Origin: Litoreibacter meonggei
GTDB lineage: Bacteria; Pseudomonadota; Alphaproteobacteria; Rhodobacterales; Rhodobacteraceae
Length of the DNA: 64,000 bases
Assembly (NCBI RefSeq): GCF_003663885.1
Contig: NZ_RCCE01000003.1
Coordinates: forward strand, 607,501 to 671,500
Direction: 5' to 3'
Position numbers and translations under genes: made by a program. The notes under the pieces are model-generated. The model saw only the letters and a program-made list of their open reading frames with translations. It searched no databases and had not been told where the DNA came from. Shown piece after piece: positions 5,677-62,759 of this stretch (the stretch's first letter is position 1; each line of letters begins with the position of its first letter).

Positions 5677-6506
5677 CCCAGAACGGCGCGGCGCAGTTCC
5701 GCATCCACCTCTGGCGCGCGACCGAACCAGCGCTCGAAGCCAGGAACGGCTTGATGTAGCAACATTCCAAGGCCATCCACGGTGAAACAGCCACGCTCTT
5801 TTGCATTCGCCAACAGCGAGGTGACCAACGGGTTATATACAATATCCGTGACCAGCGTTTTAGGTGTCAGGCCATCAAGATTGAACTTCAGTTCTTCCTT
5901 GCCAGTCATTCCCAAGGCCGTTGTGTTCACAAGCGTGGTCGCTTCATCAAGGTGGCTGGCGGCTTGTGTCCAGTCGACAACTTTGATCTTGCCGCCGAAA
6001 TGGGCTTTCAGCGCATCCGCGCGTGCACGGGTGCGGTTGGTCAGAATAATCTCGGGCACTTTTTCATGCAACAGCGCTGCCACAATCGCACGAGATGCTC
6101 CACCGGCCCCAAGGACCAAAGCCGGTCCTGCTTTTGGGTCCCACCCTGGCGCCTCTTGTTTCAAACTAGAGATAAACCCGATCCCATCAGTGTTATCAGC
6201 GTGGATCTTACCGTCACTTTGAAAAGTCAGCGTGTTGGCTGCACCAATAAGTGCAGCCCGATCGGAAATGACATCGGCGATATCCAAAACGCTTTCTTTG
6301 TGGGGCAGCGTAATGTTTACCCCGCGAAACCCCATCTTGGGCAAGTTGTTCAGAACGTGAGGCAGGTTCACACTGGAGACGTCCATCGGGATATAATAGC
6401 CGTTAATACCATACCGCTTGAGCCAATGACCGTGCAGGAGGGGTGATTTGCTTTGGGTAATCGGCTGGCCAATGACCCCCGCCAAGAGGATTGTGTCGTT
6501 GGTCAT
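5673..6506 (-). CDS. aroE: Shikimate dehydrogenase
   Basis: AroE reduces 3-dehydroshikimate to shikimate with NADPH in aromatic amino acid synthesis. The 277-residue protein has the substrate motif [10 protein letters not shown] at about residues 17-26, the catalytic lysine K70 in NITLPHKES, and D107 in NTDGIG. The nucleotide-binding loop GAGGASRA is at residues 133-140. The start codon overlaps the maf stop (ATGA) and its own stop overlaps coaE in the same way, giving a tightly coupled operon. Confidence 0.95.
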
Positions 6507-7102
6507 CCGTCAATTGCTCCTGACATGGTAAGATAGCCTAGCACTTCTAATAGCGGCAGGCCCAGCACTGTGAAATAGTCACCGTCCACACGGGCGAAAA
6601 GCCGCGCGCCTTCGGCCTCAAGTTGATAGCCGCCAACGCAGTGGCGAATGTTATCCCAATTTCTGTTAACGTAGCCCTCGATATAATCTGGGCTCAGCAC
6701 ACGCATGGTTAATCGGACCTGCCCTACAGTCCGCCATACAGGCTTTGCATCCTCGTAAATGACAGCGGCAGAAAGCAGTTTGTGTTGTTTGCCGGACATT
6801 CGTGCAAGTTGCGCCATCGCATCATCAGGGGATTTAGGCTTGGATAGGACTTGGCGTTCAAACTCCAACACCTGATCGCTGCCGATCACCAAGGCTTCCG
6901 GGTGTCTATCCGCAATTCGGCGGGCCTTGAACTCCGCTAGGGTATCGGCGACGTCGCGTGCAGTCGCATCCTCGGCGAAAAGCGAAGCCTTAATGCTATC
7001 CTCATCAATACGAGCAACCATAGAGGTGAAGGAAACACCCGCCTGCCGCAGCATGGACTGCCGTGTTTCAGAGCCGGATGCGAGAATTATTGGGCGTGTC
7101 AT
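6503..7102 (-). CDS. maf: Maf family nucleotide pyrophosphatase
   Basis: Maf proteins hydrolyse non-canonical or modified nucleoside triphosphates and have been called septum formation inhibitors. The 199-residue protein has the N-terminal phosphate-binding motif as LASGSETRQ (residues 7-15) instead of the usual LASASPRR, and the catalytic D76 in [10 protein letters not shown] followed by LSKP. This variant fits Maf-like proteins found in alphaproteobacterial origin regions. It is the first gene of the operon reading away from oriC. A perfect DnaA box abuts and shares one base with its start codon, so DnaA may influence its transcription. Exact substrate preference is unknown. Confidence 0.88.
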
Positions 7103-7110
7103 GTGGATAA
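7102..7110 (-). promoter_or_regulatory. Perfect DnaA box at the maf start
   Basis: TGTGGATAA, the exact reverse complement of TTATCCACA, sits directly upstream of maf and shares the first base of its start codon. It is the strongest DnaA box of the origin region. Confidence 0.8.
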
Positions 7111-7496
7111 CTCTGAGGGGAAGTGCAGGGACATATATTGCGTTAAGAAGATCTTATCCACCGTGTTTGAGTTGATCGATCGCTTTACCCACATTGTTCG
7201 AATTTTGGGTCTACTCTTGTCCCTTGTGGAGTACGCCATTCACGGATGTGCGCAATGTTGCTGAACGCAATTCCGTACACTATTTACCCACAGATTCTCC
7301 ACTACGTTGAGTGTGTTTAACTATCTGTTTTTTATAAGTTTTTTATGGCTTTTACTTTTCCATGGAAACTTTCGCTCTCTGATTGCGGAATCGTGGACAA
7401 GTATTTGATCCACACTATCCACTGTACCTACTAACAACATCATCTTTTCTTTCTTCTTTATTTATTTAAGAAGGAACAACTTATATCGGAGCGCAA
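7103..7496. other. Probable chromosomal replication origin (oriC)
   Basis: This 394-bp block has no gene and separates minus-strand genes on the left from plus-strand genes on the right. DnaA boxes (consensus TTATCCACA) are dense: a perfect one on the minus strand at 7102-7110, one-mismatch copies at 7154-7162, 7185-7193, 7284-7292 and 7406-7414, and two-mismatch copies at 7225-7233, 7295-7303, 7392-7400 and 7415-7423. AT-rich tracts at about 7317-7361 and 7442-7470 could serve as unwinding elements. Two GANTC methylation sites (7293-7297 and 7388-7392), as used by CcrM, are present. parS sites and parAB lie 3-7 kb away. In Caulobacter and Rickettsia the origin lies next to hemE; here the neighbours are maf and hemJ. 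Confidence 0.85.
7317..7361. other. AT-rich candidate DNA-unwinding element in oriC
   Basis: This stretch is strongly AT-rich (TTAACTATCTG, then TTTTTTATAAG and TTTTTTATGG) and lies between the left and right groups of DnaA boxes. It is the best candidate for the duplex-unwinding element. The assignment is by composition only. Confidence 0.5.
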
Positions 7497-7949
7497 ATGA
7501 CAGATTTTCTGGCAGAAGTTTATCCATGGACCAAAAGCATGCATGTAATCTCCGTGATTGCTTGGATGGCCGGGTTGTTCTATCTGCCACGATTATTCGT
7601 TCATCATACTGAGAAAGTAGAAGTTGGGTCCGAAACGGACAAGCTGTTTCAAATGATGGAACTGAAGCTGTTCAAACTCATCATGACTCCGGCGATGATG
7701 AGTACGTGGATTTTTGGACTGTCACTGGTTTTTACCCCCGGGGTTGTAGACTGGTCGGAATGGTGGCCTTGGATCAAGGCCGGGGCGGTGCTTGGAATGA
7801 CATGGTTTCATGAGTGGCTGGGTCAGCGCCGCAAGGAATTTTCTGCGGGGAAGAATACGCGAACGGGTCGAACCTACCGCTTGATGAATGAGCTGCCGAC
7901 TGTTTTTATGATCGTTATTGTCATCATGGTGATTGTCCGCCCGATTTGA
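7497..7949 (+). CDS. hemJ: HemJ-type protoporphyrinogen IX oxidase
   Basis: HemJ oxidises protoporphyrinogen IX to protoporphyrin IX, the penultimate heme step, and is an inner-membrane protein. The 150-residue product has four or five membrane segments. It carries the family hallmark WTKSMHVISVIAWMAGLFYLP (residues 11-31 region) with the conserved H16, and the later GMTWFHEWLG and IVIVIMVIVRP segments. A Shine-Dalgarno-like AAGGAAC precedes the start by about 20 bases, and a weaker GGAG lies nearer. It is the first plus-strand gene to the right of oriC. hemE, often its neighbour in other alphaproteobacteria, is not in this window. Confidence 0.9.
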   Translation: MTDFLAEVYPWTKSMHVISVIAWMAGLFYLPRLFVHHTEKVEVGSETDKLFQMMELKLFKLIMTPAMMSTWIFGLSLVFTPGVVDWSEWWPWIKAGAVLGMTWFHEWLGQRRKEFSAGKNTRTGRTYRLMNELPTVFMIVIVIMVIVRPI

Positions 7950-10674: not shown

Positions 10675-12555
10675 GTGTTTCACGTGAAACATTCGTCATT
10701 CGATGTAATTGTTATTGGCGGCGGTCACGCTGGCACCGAGGCTGCGCACGCCGCGGCGCGCGCCGGCGCGCGAACTGCACTTGTTACGCAGAAGGCTGAT
10801 ACCATCGGCGTAATGTCCTGTAATCCAGCGATTGGCGGACTCGGAAAAGGGCACCTGGTGCGAGAAATTGATGCTCTTGATGGTATCATGGGTCGCGCAG
10901 CCGATGCGGCAGGGATTCAATTTCGGCTGCTAAATCGCCGCAAAGGTCCTGCGGTTCAGGGGCCGCGTGCACAGGCAGACCGCGCCTTATATAGATCGTC
11001 AATTCAAACACTTGTTGCGAATCAACCTAATCTCACAGTCGTTGAAGGCGAGGTCGAAGATCTTATTTTCAAAGGCGAAACTGTAGGTGGTGTGATTCTG
11101 GCTGACGGTTCGAAGATCACATCGGGTGCAGTTGTGTTAACGGCGGGCACTTTCTTGCGCGGAATTATACACATCGGTGATGAGTCGCGGCCCGGCGGTC
11201 GGGTTGGCGATGCGCCAGTGATAAAGCTGGCAGAACGCATTGATAGCTTTGGCGTTGAAATGGGCAGACTGAAGACGGGTACGCCCCCTCGGCTTGCCAG
11301 TGATACAATTAACTGGTCGATATTGGAGATGCAGCCCGGCGATGACCAGCCGGAGCTATTTTCGTTTATGTCTAAGGGAACAGTGGCTAAGCAGATTTCT
11401 TGCGGTATTACACACACCAATGAGCATACCCATGAGCTAATTCGCAGTAATCTTGAACGATCGGCGATGTATGGGGGGCACATCGATGGGGTGGGTCCTC
11501 GATATTGCCCCTCGATCGAGGACAAGGTTGTCCGCTTCGCTGACAAGACATCCCATCAAGTGTTTTTGGAGCCTGAAGGATTAAACAGCAACTCCGTTTA
11601 TCCGAATGGTATTTCGACGTCGCTTTCTGCGGATATTCAGGAGAAATATGTTCAATCAATTCAGGGTCTTGAGAATGCGCACATCCTTCAGCCGGGCTAC
11701 GCGATTGAGTATGATTACGTTGACCCGAGGGCGCTCAGCAGAACGCTAGAGCTTCGGGTTGCGCCCGGATTGTTTTTGGCAGGACAGATCAACGGGACAA
11801 CAGGATACGAAGAAGCAGGCGCGCAAGGATTGATGGCTGGACTGAATGCAGCGCGACGCGCCCTTCGAAAGGATGAATTTATAATTGGCCGCTCAGAAGC
11901 ATATATCGGGGTCATGATTGATGATTTGATCACGCGTGGGGTTCAAGAGCCATATCGCATGTTCACGTCCCGCGCAGAGTATCGAATGTCCCTTCGGGCT
12001 GACAATGCCGATCAGAGGTTAACGCAACGAGGCATCGAGGCGGAGTGTGTCAGCAAAGATCGCGCCAAAGTATACCGCACGAAGTATGAAGGCTTGATGG
12101 CGCTTCGCTCCCAGATGGAGTCTGTGAGAGTGTCTCCGCAAGAAGCGGAAAAAGCCGGTATTAGGGTGAACAAGGACGGGCAGAGGCGATCGGCTTTTGA
12201 GCTTTTGGCGTTTCCTGATGTAACGCTGGACTCGTTGTCCACGTTGGTGCCTGGATTGTCTGGATATGACTCAGAAATCGCGACTCAAGTAGCTCGAGAT
12301 GCGCTTTATGCAAACTATATTGAGCGGCAGAATCGGGACGCAGAAGCGCTTCGTCGGGACGAAGCCGTTGTTATTGATAGTGATTTTAGTTTTGATAACC
12401 TAAATGGCCTTTCCAATGAGCTTAAGGGTAAGCTTACACGCGCACGTCCGGCGACACTTGCGCAGGCAGCGAAGGTGGATGGTGTGACCCCCGCTGCGCT
12501 AACGCTCATCCTCGGCCATATTAAGTCCCAGAGGGCGCGTGCGAGCCAAGCATGA
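10675..12555 (+). CDS. mnmG: tRNA uridine carboxymethylaminomethyl synthase subunit MnmG (GidA)
   Basis: MnmG is the FAD-containing partner of MnmE in wobble uridine modification. The 626-residue protein begins with a Rossmann motif [14 protein letters not shown] at residues 11-24. It contains the conserved [23 protein letters not shown] block at about 48-70 (read here in two parts, with the redox-active cysteine in SCNPAIGG) and the [17 protein letters not shown] block near 370. Translation starts with GTG at 10675. The first codons read MFHVKH, which is the parS palindrome at 10676-10691 translated in this frame. It overlaps rsmG by ATGA. Confidence 0.96.
10676..10691. other. parS centromere site 1 (inside mnmG)
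   Basis: TGTTTCACGTGAAACA is a perfect 16-bp parS palindrome, the ParB-binding site of chromosomal parABS systems. It overlaps the start of mnmG, encoding the FHVKH of its N-terminus. parA and parB lie 2.5-3.3 kb downstream. Confidence 0.95.
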
Positions 12556-13178
12556 TGGAGCAAGATCAATTTGCTGAGCAGCATGATGTTTCACGTGAAA
12601 CAATGACGCGACTGCGGACTTACGACAGCTTGCTGAGGAAGTGGACGACGAAAATTAACCTCGTCTCCAAATCAACATTGCCGGAACTCTGGACGCGCCA
12701 TTTCGCGGATTCGGCGCAGGTATTTGACTCAATCCCTAGCGACGCCCTTTCACTATGTGATTTTGGCGCTGGTGGTGGCTTTCCGGGACTAGTAATCGCG
12801 GCATTAGCACATGAGAAACTACCAAATCTTACCGTTTCGCTCGTTGAATCGGATGTTCGGAAGGCATCATTTCTAGTCACCGCTGCACGGGAGATGGGTG
12901 TCCAGGTAGTGGTTCACGCCGAGAGGGTAGAAGCGTTGCCGGCGCAAAACGCGGACGTTATCACAGCGCGCGCCCTTGCTTCGCTCAGTGACTTACTTTT
13001 GATGGCCGATTTGCACCTCCGAGAAAGAGGGACAGCATTGTTTTTGAAGGGCGAGCGGCATCAAGAGGAACTAGACATAGCCTCAACGATGTGGGACTTC
13101 AAAGTAGACAAGCATAAGAGCACGACAAATACCGGGTCGGCCCTCCTAGCGATAACAAATCTGAGGCGAGCAGTATAA
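12552..13178 (+). CDS. rsmG: 16S rRNA 7-methylguanosine-527 methyltransferase RsmG (GidB)
   Basis: RsmG methylates G527 of 16S rRNA using S-adenosylmethionine. The 208-residue protein has the SAM-binding motif [16 protein letters not shown] at about residues 68-83, with [14 protein letters not shown] for the second strand. [13 protein letters not shown] near residue 137 is the usual active-site segment. The start overlaps the mnmG stop (ATGA). Codons 12-17 (DVSRET) are a second parS palindrome. It is followed directly by parA with no gap. Confidence 0.95.
12587..12602. other. parS centromere site 2 (inside rsmG)
   Basis: TGTTTCACGTGAAACA occurs again, identical to site 1, 1911 bp away. Here it is read in a different frame and encodes DVSRET of RsmG (residues 12-17). 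Two identical 16-bp palindromes next to parAB are far beyond chance. Confidence 0.95.
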
Positions 13179-13979
13179 ATGGCGAAAAAGCCACCAAGAA
13201 TCATTTCTATCGCCAACCAAAAGGGCGGCGTGGGCAAGACAACAACGACAATTAACCTTGGCGCAGCTCTGGCCGCTAAAGGAAAGAAGGTTGCCCTAAT
13301 TGACTTGGATCCTCAGGGTAACGCCTCAACTGGGTTAGGTATCGAGCATGCCGATCGGAAAAGCACGACTTACGATCTGCTCTTGAATGACATGCCGTTA
13401 ACCGAGATTTTGCGGGATACCGCAGTTCCTGGCTTGTCAATTTCGCCCGCAAACTCCGACCTGAGTTCAGCTGACTTGGAATTGGTTTCAACAGCACGCC
13501 GAACTTTTCTTATTAGCGACGCTTTAACCGGACAGGATATCAAAGGGTTAGGCTTAGACTACATTCTAATAGATTGCCCACCATCGTTGAACTTGCTGAC
13601 GCTGAACGCGATGGTTGCATCGGATTCGGTCCTTGTGCCCCTTCAGGCGGAGTTCTTCGCATTGGAGGGACTTTCACAACTGATGCTCTCAGTTCGCGAA
13701 ATTCGCGAAACTGCGAACTCCAGACTTCGCTTGGAAGGTATTGTGCTTACCATGTATGATAGACGCAACAACTTGTGTCATCAGGTAGAGATGGATGTCA
13801 GGGAAAACCTTCGTGACCTCGTCTTTAAGACGATGATTCCTAGAAATGTAAGGTTAAGCGAGGCGCCATCTTACGGCCTTCCTGTGATTAACTATGACCC
13901 TGCTTCACTTGGGGCGGTGGCATACAAATCGCTCGCGACAGAGATGGTCGCGAGACATATTAAATTGGATGGAGCTTAA
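13179..13979 (+). CDS. parA: Chromosome partitioning ATPase ParA
   Basis: ParA is the Walker-type ATPase that moves ParB-parS complexes and segregates the origin. The 266-residue protein has the deviant P-loop KGGVGKTT at residues 15-22 with the signature lysine of the family. DLDPQGNASTGLG at about 43-55 is switch I, and LDYILIDCPPSLNLLTLNA near 127-145 is the Walker B region. The start codon follows the rsmG stop immediately, and parB begins 1 bp after its stop. The short N-terminus, without an HTH, is typical of chromosomal ParA. Confidence 0.96.
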   Translation: MAKKPPRIISIANQKGGVGKTTTTINLGAALAAKGKKVALIDLDPQGNASTGLGIEHADRKSTTYDLLLNDMPLTEILRDTAVPGLSISPANSDLSSADLELVSTARRTFLISDALTGQDIKGLGLDYILIDCPPSLNLLTLNAMVASDSVLVPLQAEFFALEGLSQLMLSVREIRETANSRLRLEGIVLTMYDRRNNLCHQVEMDVRENLRDLVFKTMIPRNVRLSEAPSYGLPVINYDPASLGAVAYKSLATEMVARHIKLDGA

Positions 13980-13980
13980 A

Positions 13981-14862
13981 ATGGCGGAGAAACGTGGACT
14001 TGGGCGTGGATTGTCGGCGTTGATGGCTGATATTGATGTGTCCGCGCCGTCAAAGGCGGATAGCCCCACTGGCAGTGGTGAGCGGATCGTCGCAATCGAG
14101 CGTATCGAGCCAAATCCAGATCAACCGCGCCGTGATTTCATCAAGGCGGATCTAGAGGAGCTCGCTGAGTCCATTCGGGCCAAGGGGATCATTCAGCCCT
14201 TGATCGTGCGTACGCATCCGACGTCCGCAGACCGGTTTGAGATTGTTGCCGGTGAGCGGCGCTGGCGCGCAGCGCAAATGGCGCAAGTTCATGAAGTTCC
14301 TGTCGTCTTGCGGGACCTGAACGACACTGAAGTTCTTGAAATTGCTATCATCGAGAACATCCAGCGTGCCGATCTGAATCCCGTCGAAGAGGCGATGGGG
14401 TATCGACAACTGCAGGACAAGTTTGGCCACACCCAAGAGCAGTTGGCGAATGCACTGGGAAAAAGCCGCAGTCACATCGCGAACTTGATGAGATTGCTGA
14501 GCTTGCCAGAAGACGTTGTGCAAATGCTGCGCCAAGGGGACCTGACCAGCGGCCATGCTCGGGCGCTTATCACGACAGACAACCCTAGCGAATTGGCGCG
14601 GAAGGTTGTTAAAAATGGCCTTTCGGTACGAGAAACAGAACGTCTCGCGAAAGCAGGTGGCGCAAAGCCGAAGCGGGTTAAACCCGCAGTTCGATCAGAA
14701 AAGGACGCTGACACGAAGGCGCTAGAGGGCGATCTGGCTGCGACACTTAAAATGGGCGTGAGCATTGATCACATAGCGGGCACCGAGGGTGGCCGCCTTA
14801 CCGTTACTTATAAAGACTTTGAGCAACTGGACGAACTGTGCCGCCTTCTTGCGGGAAACTAG
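13981..14862 (+). CDS. parB: Chromosome partitioning protein ParB
   Basis: ParB binds parS, spreads along DNA as a CTP-dependent clamp, and stimulates ParA. The protein is 293 residues when started at the ATG at 13981 (MAEKRGLGRGLSALMAD, the usual ParB N-terminus), one base after the parA stop. The CTP-binding ParB/Srx domain includes the GERRWRAAQMA box at about residues 89-99 and ENIQRADLNPVEEAMGYRQL at about 125-144. A helix-turn-helix follows (TQEQLANALGKSRSHIANLMRLL, about 150-172), and the C-terminal dimerisation domain ends the protein. Two parS sites lie upstream. Confidence 0.96.
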   Translation: MAEKRGLGRGLSALMADIDVSAPSKADSPTGSGERIVAIERIEPNPDQPRRDFIKADLEELAESIRAKGIIQPLIVRTHPTSADRFEIVAGERRWRAAQMAQVHEVPVVLRDLNDTEVLEIAIIENIQRADLNPVEEAMGYRQLQDKFGHTQEQLANALGKSRSHIANLMRLLSLPEDVVQMLRQGDLTSGHARALITTDNPSELARKVVKNGLSVRETERLAKAGGAKPKRVKPAVRSEKDADTKALEGDLAATLKMGVSIDHIAGTEGGRLTVTYKDFEQLDELCRLLAGN

Positions 14863-60964: not shown

Positions 60965-61960
60965 ATGAGTCGTTTATCAATCGGCAGTCTATTTCGCCGA
61001 CCAGAGGCCGGAGCCTTTTTGGGAATGGTCGCAGTCATTGCCTTCTTTCTAATTTTCGGCGGCATAAATTTTTTGAAACCGTCCGGTATCGCGAGTTGGC
61101 TAAACGTTGCCGCCAACATTGGGATTATTGCAATACCGGTCGGGTTGTTGATGATCGCAGGTGAATTAGACATTTCCATCGGGTCAATGATCCCTGCGGG
61201 GTCGATGATCGTGGCAATCATGTCCGGCCACTATGACTTCCCGATTTGGATGTCGATCATTGTGGTGCTCGGGTTTGGCGTGGTTGTCGGGTTTATCAAC
61301 GGCTTTTTGGTCGTTCACACAGCCGTCCCGTCGTTGATTGTAACGCTTGGCACTTTGTTTGCAGTTGCGGGTCTCGTGCTTGGCCTATCGGTGCTGATCA
61401 CCGGAACGACCAGCGTATCGATCAAGGCGCCGGACTTTTACAAAGCCGTTTTCGGGCAATTTATTGGTGGCACCTATCAAGTTATCATCTTGTGGTGGTT
61501 TGCTGTGACGGCCGTCTATATTTTCTACATTCATTATACGAAGTACGGTAATTGGATCTTCGCTATGGGCGGCGACCGTGAAAGCGCACGCAATGCCGGT
61601 ATCCCGACCACGAAACTGACGATCATCTTGTTCATCCTTTCGGCGTGTAGTGCGGCGTTCGTGGGCATGTGTCAGGCGCTGTTGTTCAACTCGGCGCAAG
61701 TGTCTGCGGGGATGTCTTATATCTTTAACGTTATCATTTCGGTGGTCGTTGGGGGCGTTGTCCTGACGGGTGGATTTGGGTCCGTCGTCGGGATCGTCTT
61801 TGGCACCATTACTTTTGCGGTGGTCAATCAAGGCATCTATTTCACAAGTTTTGATCGCAACTGGTCAAGTTTGATTATTGGCGTGATGCTGTTGGCCGCC
61901 GTCCTGATGAACAACACCTTCCGCTCCATGGCGCTGTCTTATGCGCCAAAGAAGAAATGA
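60965..61960 (+). CDS. Ribose-type ABC transporter permease (RbsC-like)
   Basis: The 331-residue permease has eight to ten membrane helices, with [20 protein letters not shown] (the family DLSVGS motif, here ELDISIGS) and [15 protein letters not shown] in the cytosolic loop. [18 protein letters not shown] near the end is the conserved carbohydrate-uptake-type-2 segment. The start at 60965 (MSRLSIGSL) is favoured; an extension lacks character. Together with its neighbours it forms a complete importer. Confidence 0.93.
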
Positions 61961-61970
61961 GGGCAAACCG

Positions 61971-62759
61971 ATGACTTCTCCAGTTCTGGAACTCCGTAGT
62001 GTTGATAAATCCTTTGGGCCGATCGACGTGCTGCATGATATTTCCCTCAAGATGAATGAAGGCGAGGTGCTTTGCCTGCTCGGGGATAACGGTGCGGGTA
62101 AATCAACGCTTATCAAGACGCTATGTGGTGTCCACAAGCCGACACGGGGTTCCATCCTTATGGATGGCGCGGAGGTGACATTCTCCACCCCGCGAGAGGC
62201 CCAAGATAAAGGCATCGCCACCGTGCACCAATTTGGCGGCACATTTCCGTTGATGAGCATTGGGCGCAGTTTCTTCGTGGGTGTGGAGCCCACCAAAGGA
62301 TGGGGTCCGTTCAAGATCTACGATCGCAAGAAAGCCAATAAGATCGCGGTCGAGGCTGTGCAGAACTTCGGCATCACGCGGGTCGATGACGGTGATCGTC
62401 TGATAGGCGGCTTGTCAGGTGGTGAACGTCAGTCGCTGGCCATTGCCCGCGCGGTCCATTTCGGCGCGCGTGTTCTTATCCTTGATGAACCAACAGCCGC
62501 GCTCGGGGTCAAACAGGCCGCACACGTTCTTCGCATCGTGAACGAGGCAAAACGCCGGGGATTGGCCGTGATTTTCATCACTCACCAGGTCATGCATGCC
62601 ATGGCAGTGGGCGATCATTTCGCTGTGTTGATCCGTGGCGCGATTGCTGCGGATTTCCGCAAAGGCGAACGGTCCCGCGAAGAGATCACCGATTTGATGG
62701 CAGGCGGCGAAACGATGGCAGATCTCGAAAGGCAAATCGAAGGCTATGCCGATGCTTAA
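61971..62759 (+). CDS. Ribose-type ABC transporter ATPase (single nucleotide-binding domain)
   Basis: The 262-residue ATPase has the P-loop GDNGAGKST at residues 38-46, [36 protein letters not shown] and [19 protein letters not shown]. Most RbsA-type ATPases are double, about 500 residues; this one is single, which occurs in a known subset that dimerises. The start at 61971 lies 10 bases after the permease stop. Confidence 0.92.

Follow-up and report, generated by a model that had tools for sequence, protein, structure and literature searches.

A very probable chromosomal replication origin between maf and hemJ in Litoreibacter meonggei and the proposed stepwise departure of its neighbours hemE and ppsR

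The genes maf and hemJ of Litoreibacter meonggei are separated by an intergenic gap of 394 bp, located at positions 7103–7496 of a 64,000-nt stretch of DNA (from here: the window), which corresponds to C3:607501-671500 in a 3.95-Mb draft genome consisting of 16 contigs. In a ten-protein tree the nearest rows to this genome were Litoreibacter ascidiaceicola and L. halocynthiae, with a top identity of 87%. The left boundary gene maf (6503–7102, − strand) and the right boundary gene hemJ (7497–7949, + strand) were assigned by matches above the cut-off to TIGR00172 (130 bits) and TIGR00701 (154 bits), respectively. Further to the left, aroE, coaE and a dnaQ-like gene are encoded on the − strand and secB on the + strand. 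To the right follow rho, mnmE, mnmG, rsmG and parA, all on the + strand, and then a parB-like gene; the names dnaQ, mnmG and parB were given from the translations only. An initial sequence-only reading had proposed this gap as the chromosomal origin of replication (oriC) and had pointed to the divergence of nearly all flanking genes, which applies to the nearest genes but not to secB, a + strand gene on the left side. The gene dnaA is located on a different contig from C3.

DnaA boxes were scored against TTATCCACA. A perfect box is present on the − strand at 7102–7110, its first base in + strand numbering coinciding with the final position of the maf start codon complement (7100–7102). It begins one base outside the range 7103–7496 to which it had been ascribed, and it is surrounded by a run of 21 bp (7099–7119) that is invariant in five Litoreibacter sequences. 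According to box scan and alignment, boxes with one mismatch begin at 7154 (TTATCCACC, 7154–7162, + strand, likewise invariant across the five sequences), 7185 (TTACCCACA, 7185–7193, + strand), 7284 and 7406. The box at 7284, again TTACCCACA, is followed at 7295 by TTCTCCACT with two mismatches (together 7284–7303, + strand), and the box at 7406, TGATCCACA, forms a tandem of direct boxes with CTATCCACT at 7415, which has two mismatches (together 7406–7423, + strand). Boxes with two mismatches within the gap are located at 7225, 7295, 7312, 7392 and 7415. Hence, the one perfect box had been recognized correctly, whereas the "about eight near-perfect" boxes of the earlier reading are reached only when two mismatches are allowed. 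The sequence TGATCCACA departs from TTATCCACA by a T-to-G change, presumably at the same position as in the G-boxes of Caulobacter. In the available text on these G-boxes a T-to-G substitution is described (PMC4468827).

The clustering of boxes is exceptional on this contig. When up to one mismatch was allowed, the candidate contained five boxes per 400 bp, the highest density along the 705,113 bp of C3, with two boxes at the runner-up site; at up to two mismatches there were ten, compared to seven at the next best site elsewhere on C3. The four boxes with at most one mismatch that lie inside the gap were matched by none of 2000 shuffles of the gap, and 53 related gaps contained 135 such boxes versus 7.6 ± 2.3 in dinucleotide shuffles. 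Another cluster, reaching up to seven boxes with at most two mismatches per 400 bp at window positions 61950–62450, is situated inside an ORF that resembles an ABC-transporter ATPase, as named from its sequence; this second cluster near position 62,000 was considered as an origin-like site and rejected, as it probably arose by chance.

The AT content of the gap is 0.60, a level reached by 0.03% of the C3 windows of the same size. The two AT-rich tracts described earlier are indeed present, one in the centre at about 7307–7346 (80% AT over 40 bp) and the other as a T-rich run from 7445. In many of the listed relatives the AT peak is found near the position of the central tract, in others nearer to the hemJ side. 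GANTC sites had also been taken as origin evidence, an argument that has to be dropped since there are two of them in the gap and the 53 related gaps contain 79 versus 94.9 ± 9.6 in shuffles, i.e., no enrichment. A strict search of positions 7051–7520 yielded no TTAA-N7-TTAA, TTAA-N6-TTAA or TTAACCAT, which we take to be the consensus forms of CtrA sites, and no WATCARNNNNTTR, the presumed consensus of the IHF site.

Towards hemJ the gap contains a conserved core of 83 bp (7393–7475, + strand), in which 81 of the 83 columns are invariant among the window and four Litoreibacter species, compared to 116 of 286 columns in 7103–7388. The invariant fraction of the core also exceeds that of the hemJ coding sequence (0.98 versus 0.60), and its longest invariant run is 63 versus 12. 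Along the core, an inverted weak box (7392) is followed by TGATCCACA (7406), CTATCCACT (7415), a spacer, CTACTAACAACATCATC and TTTTCTTTCTTCTTTATTTATTTAA; 21 bp separate the end of the core from the hemJ ATG. Behind the tandem boxes there are trio-like repeats (7428–7444, + strand) consisting of CTACTA at 7428–7433 and ATCATC at 7439–7444, and then the T-rich and AT-rich tract at 7445–7469, which from sequence and alignments is proposed to be the DNA unwinding element.

This arrangement resembles the basal unwinding system (BUS) of Bacillus subtilis and other bacteria, for which the available text of PMC8287927 gives a layout of boxes, a spacer and at least three triplets of the form 3′-NAN-5′ no more than 16 bp from a box. 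The core has the same elements, namely boxes, a short spacer, triplet repeats and an AT-rich tract, in matching order and direction. The core differs from BUS in that its triplets are mostly ATC, i.e., 3′-TAG-5′ instead of the commonest 3′-GAT-5′, with only three in a row in the window. In our implementation of the BUS rule the box tolerance was widened to two mismatches; under this rule the window conforms through the two-mismatch box at 7415–7423, a spacer of 15 and the triplets ATC ATC TTT. Two CTA triplets, equivalent to 3′-GAT-5′, occur 13 bp past the box at 7406–7414, after which the register breaks. The BUS-like pattern was found in 31 of the 53 related gaps, compared to 3.4 in shuffles and to 1.3% of random 150-mers from the contig, and the remaining 22 gaps failed the rule as implemented. 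The heptamer CATCATC was present in 36 of the 53 gaps versus 0.2 in shuffles. We propose that the segment 7393–7475 constitutes a BUS-like unwinding module aimed at hemJ.

Two exact copies of GTTTCACGTGAAAC, which we take to be the parS consensus, are located on the + strand to the right of the gap. The first, at 10677–10690, coincides with the start of mnmG (within MFHVKH), the second, at 12588–12601, lies near the start of rsmG (within DVSRET), so that in both cases the partition site overlaps coding sequence. No exact copy was expected in shuffles. These sites are the sole exact ones on C3 and are found 3.2 and 5.1 kb from the candidate. The parA gene, which matches ParA-type families, and the parB-like gene follow at 13179–14862 on the + strand.

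Neither hemE nor the RP001-type gene ppsR is located in the window, as had been stated before: hemE resides at C3:314383-315393, 299 kb from the candidate, and no match to ppsR (PF03618) was obtained in the whole genome. We surveyed the class in 133 genomes, nearly all from different families, with counts given on the rows kept. Both ppsR and hemE were detected in 77 of the 133, in 69 of which they were divergent within 3 kb of each other, with a median gap of 472 bp. In 83 of 94 genomes, hemE and hemJ shared a strand and were no more than 4 kb apart. Since 17 genomes retain this pair but gave no ppsR match (as seen by comparing two lists by hand), the isolated loss of ppsR is frequent across the class. 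Within the order, ppsR was found in 2 of 196 genomes, and the same two are the only ones with hemE at most 10 kb from hemJ (2 of the 111 genomes for which both rows were listed). A wider draw of the family yielded ppsR in 16 of 394 genomes. All 16 read maf-ppsR-gap, followed by hemE-hemJ in eight and directly by hemJ in the other eight, where hemE is elsewhere.

Three gene orders can thus be distinguished: the ancestral order A, maf-ppsR-ori-hemE-hemJ; the intermediate order B, maf-ppsR-ori-hemJ; and the derived order C, maf-ori-hemJ, to which the window belongs. In all eight family genomes of the ancestral order, hemJ is already positioned directly after hemE. Order C was read in 53 loci, 26 of them from a scan with the HemJ of the window and 27 from another draw (own copy excluded, two near copies included). 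A DnaA box with at most one mismatch at the same offset from the maf start was counted by hand in 40 of these 53 loci; among 18 loci retaining ppsR, none has such a box at the maf start. This suggests that maf came to adjoin a DnaA box once ppsR was lost. The sequence-only reading had considered the edge of the origin rearranged, with hemJ taking the place of hemE. The neighbours did change; however, hemJ did not move in, but hemE left and ppsR was lost. In nearly all other Rhodobacteraceae sampled, hemE and RP001 are likewise missing from this junction, which makes this the usual state of the family and not a peculiarity of one genome.

The core is widely distributed. A profile, R1, was built from 23 core sequences including that of the window and was searched at E ≤ 1, with 19 first-look candidates scored per genome and stricter filters; some of the test genomes are possibly close to the training species. 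R1 matched 188 of the 196 genomes of the order, the single match in the genome of the window having an E value of 1.3e-23, and gave no match in eight, among them G141 with the ancestral order. Among 150 matches listed, 128 had a listed hemJ, and in 128 of these 128 the core was located 25–95 bp upstream of hemJ on the same strand. Of 19 loci that have the ancestral or intermediate order or come from outside the family, 16 were matched and L190, L199 and L070 were missed. Comparing coordinates by hand, the match precedes hemE by at most about 150 bp in loci that have this gene there and precedes hemJ in the others. The core, found in 188 of 196 genomes, would therefore provide a sequence test for origins that is independent of gene neighbours.

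The order of events was approached with a ten-protein tree of 43 rows (8 with order A, 8 with B, 25 with C, and 2 outgroup rows). Most A rows branched earliest, then B, and the sampled C rows formed one clade with an SH-aLRT of 100, a grouping that is favoured by the selection of C rows according to their likeness to the HemJ of the window. G611 (locus L197), which has order A, was placed among B in the ten-protein tree and outside B in the HemE tree. A single departure of hemE, i.e., a group of B and C without G611, was rejected by an AU test (p 0.009) on a quick tree, with the group named after the tree had been seen. The position of G611 among B and this rejection imply two or more departures of hemE, or its return. 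The gap between ppsR and hemE in G611, of about 321 bp, is the shortest among the eight A loci.

In the genomes of order C, hemE is found divergently beside hemC in 13 of 14 examined. In those of order B, hemC is beside hemE in four of eight and hemA is no further than about 1.6 kb away in four of eight, with one genome having both and one neither. This recurrent placement next to hemC or near hemA in most of the derived and intermediate genomes examined would fit an alternative in which a foreign hemE copy elsewhere replaced the origin copy, which was then deleted. We regard this course of events as unlikely because the derived HemE proteins form one clade (99/97; 14 rows, two of them from one genome) next to the HemE of intermediate-order (84/84) and ancestral-order members of this family, in a tree with three outgroup rows that would be compatible with a transfer within the order. 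The placement of C near B and A favours a relocation of the same gene over a foreign replacement. That the origin travelled together with hemE was considered and rejected, since near hemE on C3 no two boxes with at most one mismatch occur per 400 bp and the core is beside hemJ. In the window's genome, hemC, hemE and hemF are clustered at C3:313320-317645 (L087:13320-17645), about 300 kb from the origin.

GC skew was computed on contig C3 and on sampled stretches of three relatives (G040, G015 and G141). The cumulative minimum over C3 is at 579,506, 35 kb to the left of the candidate. By segment, the skew is −0.040 at 0–548 kb, +0.003 at 548–615 kb and +0.052 at 615–705 kb. Inside the candidate, the curve dips to a local minimum at C3:614,956 (window position 7456), the lowest value within C3:600–632 kb, a range chosen by the analyst; it is undercut by values to the left of this range, e.g. 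at C3:596,000. The check whether the skew minimum marks this gap had a mixed outcome: the minimum of the contig is 35 kb off, but a flat stretch lies between a negative and a positive arm, with a local minimum in the gap. The 65-kb stretch of near-zero skew at C3:548000-615000, which starts to the left of the window and extends into it, is perhaps an inversion or insertion. At C3:590–600 kb every long ORF counted lies on the + strand, contrary to the expected fork direction. In G040, for which twenty 20-kb stretches were sampled, the skew was negative in nine of ten before hemJ, positive in nine onward to 3.0 Mb, and negative again in the last stretch at 3.5 Mb. The skew of G015 was noisy, and that of G141, with the ancestral gene order, was in rough agreement only.

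The distance of 35 kb to the contig-wide minimum, together with the overlap of the perfect box with the maf start codon, would be in line with the gap being a divergent maf/hemJ promoter controlled by DnaA, serving as a titration or regulatory site, with the true origin elsewhere, e.g. near C3:579,506. Such an explanation appears very improbable. Elsewhere on C3, to which the box scan was confined, at most two boxes with up to one mismatch occur per 400 bp, and the core, the parS sites and the gene order of alphaproteobacterial origin flanks all coincide at the gap. Moreover, the skew of G040 switches at the maf-hemJ junction, and the core profile matches the genome of the window once at E ≤ 1 (19 first-look candidates scored). 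A transposition of an oriC copy into the maf-hemJ junction, which would explain why both diagnostic neighbours, hemE and ppsR, are gone, is hardly credible given that the left (dnaQ-coaE-aroE-maf) and right (hemJ-rho-mnmE-mnmG-rsmG-parA) flanks are identical in loci of orders A, B and C and that the core keeps its position in all of them.

The clustering of DnaA boxes, the AT content, an unwinding-like core conserved throughout the family and the presence of parS and parA lead us to conclude that the gap separating maf from hemJ very probably represents the chromosomal oriC, as the sequence-only reading had claimed. With considerable confidence we further interpret it as an origin that stayed in place while its neighbours were shed stepwise, and we propose a BUS-like opening. 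DnaA would bind the boxes scattered from the maf start codon to position 7423, and the tandem weak boxes at 7406–7423 may steer a DnaA filament onto the adjoining trio-like repeats. The AT-rich tract at 7445–7469 would then melt in the manner of a BUS and two forks would leave, while the parS sites 3–5 kb to the right would allow ParAB to separate the new origins. In the history of the locus, hemE, formerly between the origin and hemJ, probably departed first and is now found beside hemC; ppsR would have been lost thereafter, bringing maf beside a DnaA box.

With 21 bp left between the core and the ATG, transcription of hemJ would need to begin within the unwinding element or before it; in that case, origin opening and hemJ expression would be coupled. 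Tentatively, the core may be viewed as a fixed unit of Rhodobacterales origins that was kept at a near-constant offset from the right-hand gene while hemE (at least twice) and ppsR were shed, with a coupling of origin opening to haem gene expression in which hemJ inherited the role of hemE.

A location of oriC next to maf is already in print. The oriC of Ketogulonicigenium vulgare Hbe602 adjoins maf, and its conservation in Rhodobacteraceae was claimed based on DoriC (PMC4793288); for 101 Rhodobacteraceae, origins were predicted with Ori-Finder, composition and parAB (PMC6699656). The direct neighbourhood of maf and the prediction by boxes and composition are shared between the former case and the window. 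A core module, a right-hand gene or an account of the departure of hemE and ppsR do not appear in the available text of these two papers. In Caulobacter and Rickettsia the origin lies between hemE and RP001 (COG1806), and alphaproteobacterial origins have been sought by means of these two genes (PMC1914354, available text). This flank is also found across the wider class and in the family genomes of the ancestral order, which have the same core before hemE. The window differs from the Caulobacter/Rickettsia type by its relocated hemE, the absence of ppsR and the lack of a CtrA consensus site in the gap. A changed boundary gene is likewise described for the origins of Wolbachia, Ehrlichia and Anaplasma; in these genera COG1806 is the displaced gene and hemE has stayed, whereas in the lineage of the window hemE went first (PMC1914354, as far as its available text describes). 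A search of openly accessible papers returned no prior description of the stepwise loss of hemE and ppsR or of the 83-bp core. What is new here is the bounded 83-bp core, and worth retaining alongside it is the A-B-C series of gene orders. The rule of finding origins by hemE and RP001 fails nearly always in the Rhodobacteraceae sampled, and genomes of the family can be arranged in a series along which the origin was retained while its boundary genes departed. The core itself represents a short, precisely bounded candidate for an unwinding module.

On the left side, the distance between secB and dnaQ is greater in L060, L061, L063 and L068 than in most other loci, and secB is inverted in L068, which points to a lower stability of the distal left arm compared to the right one.
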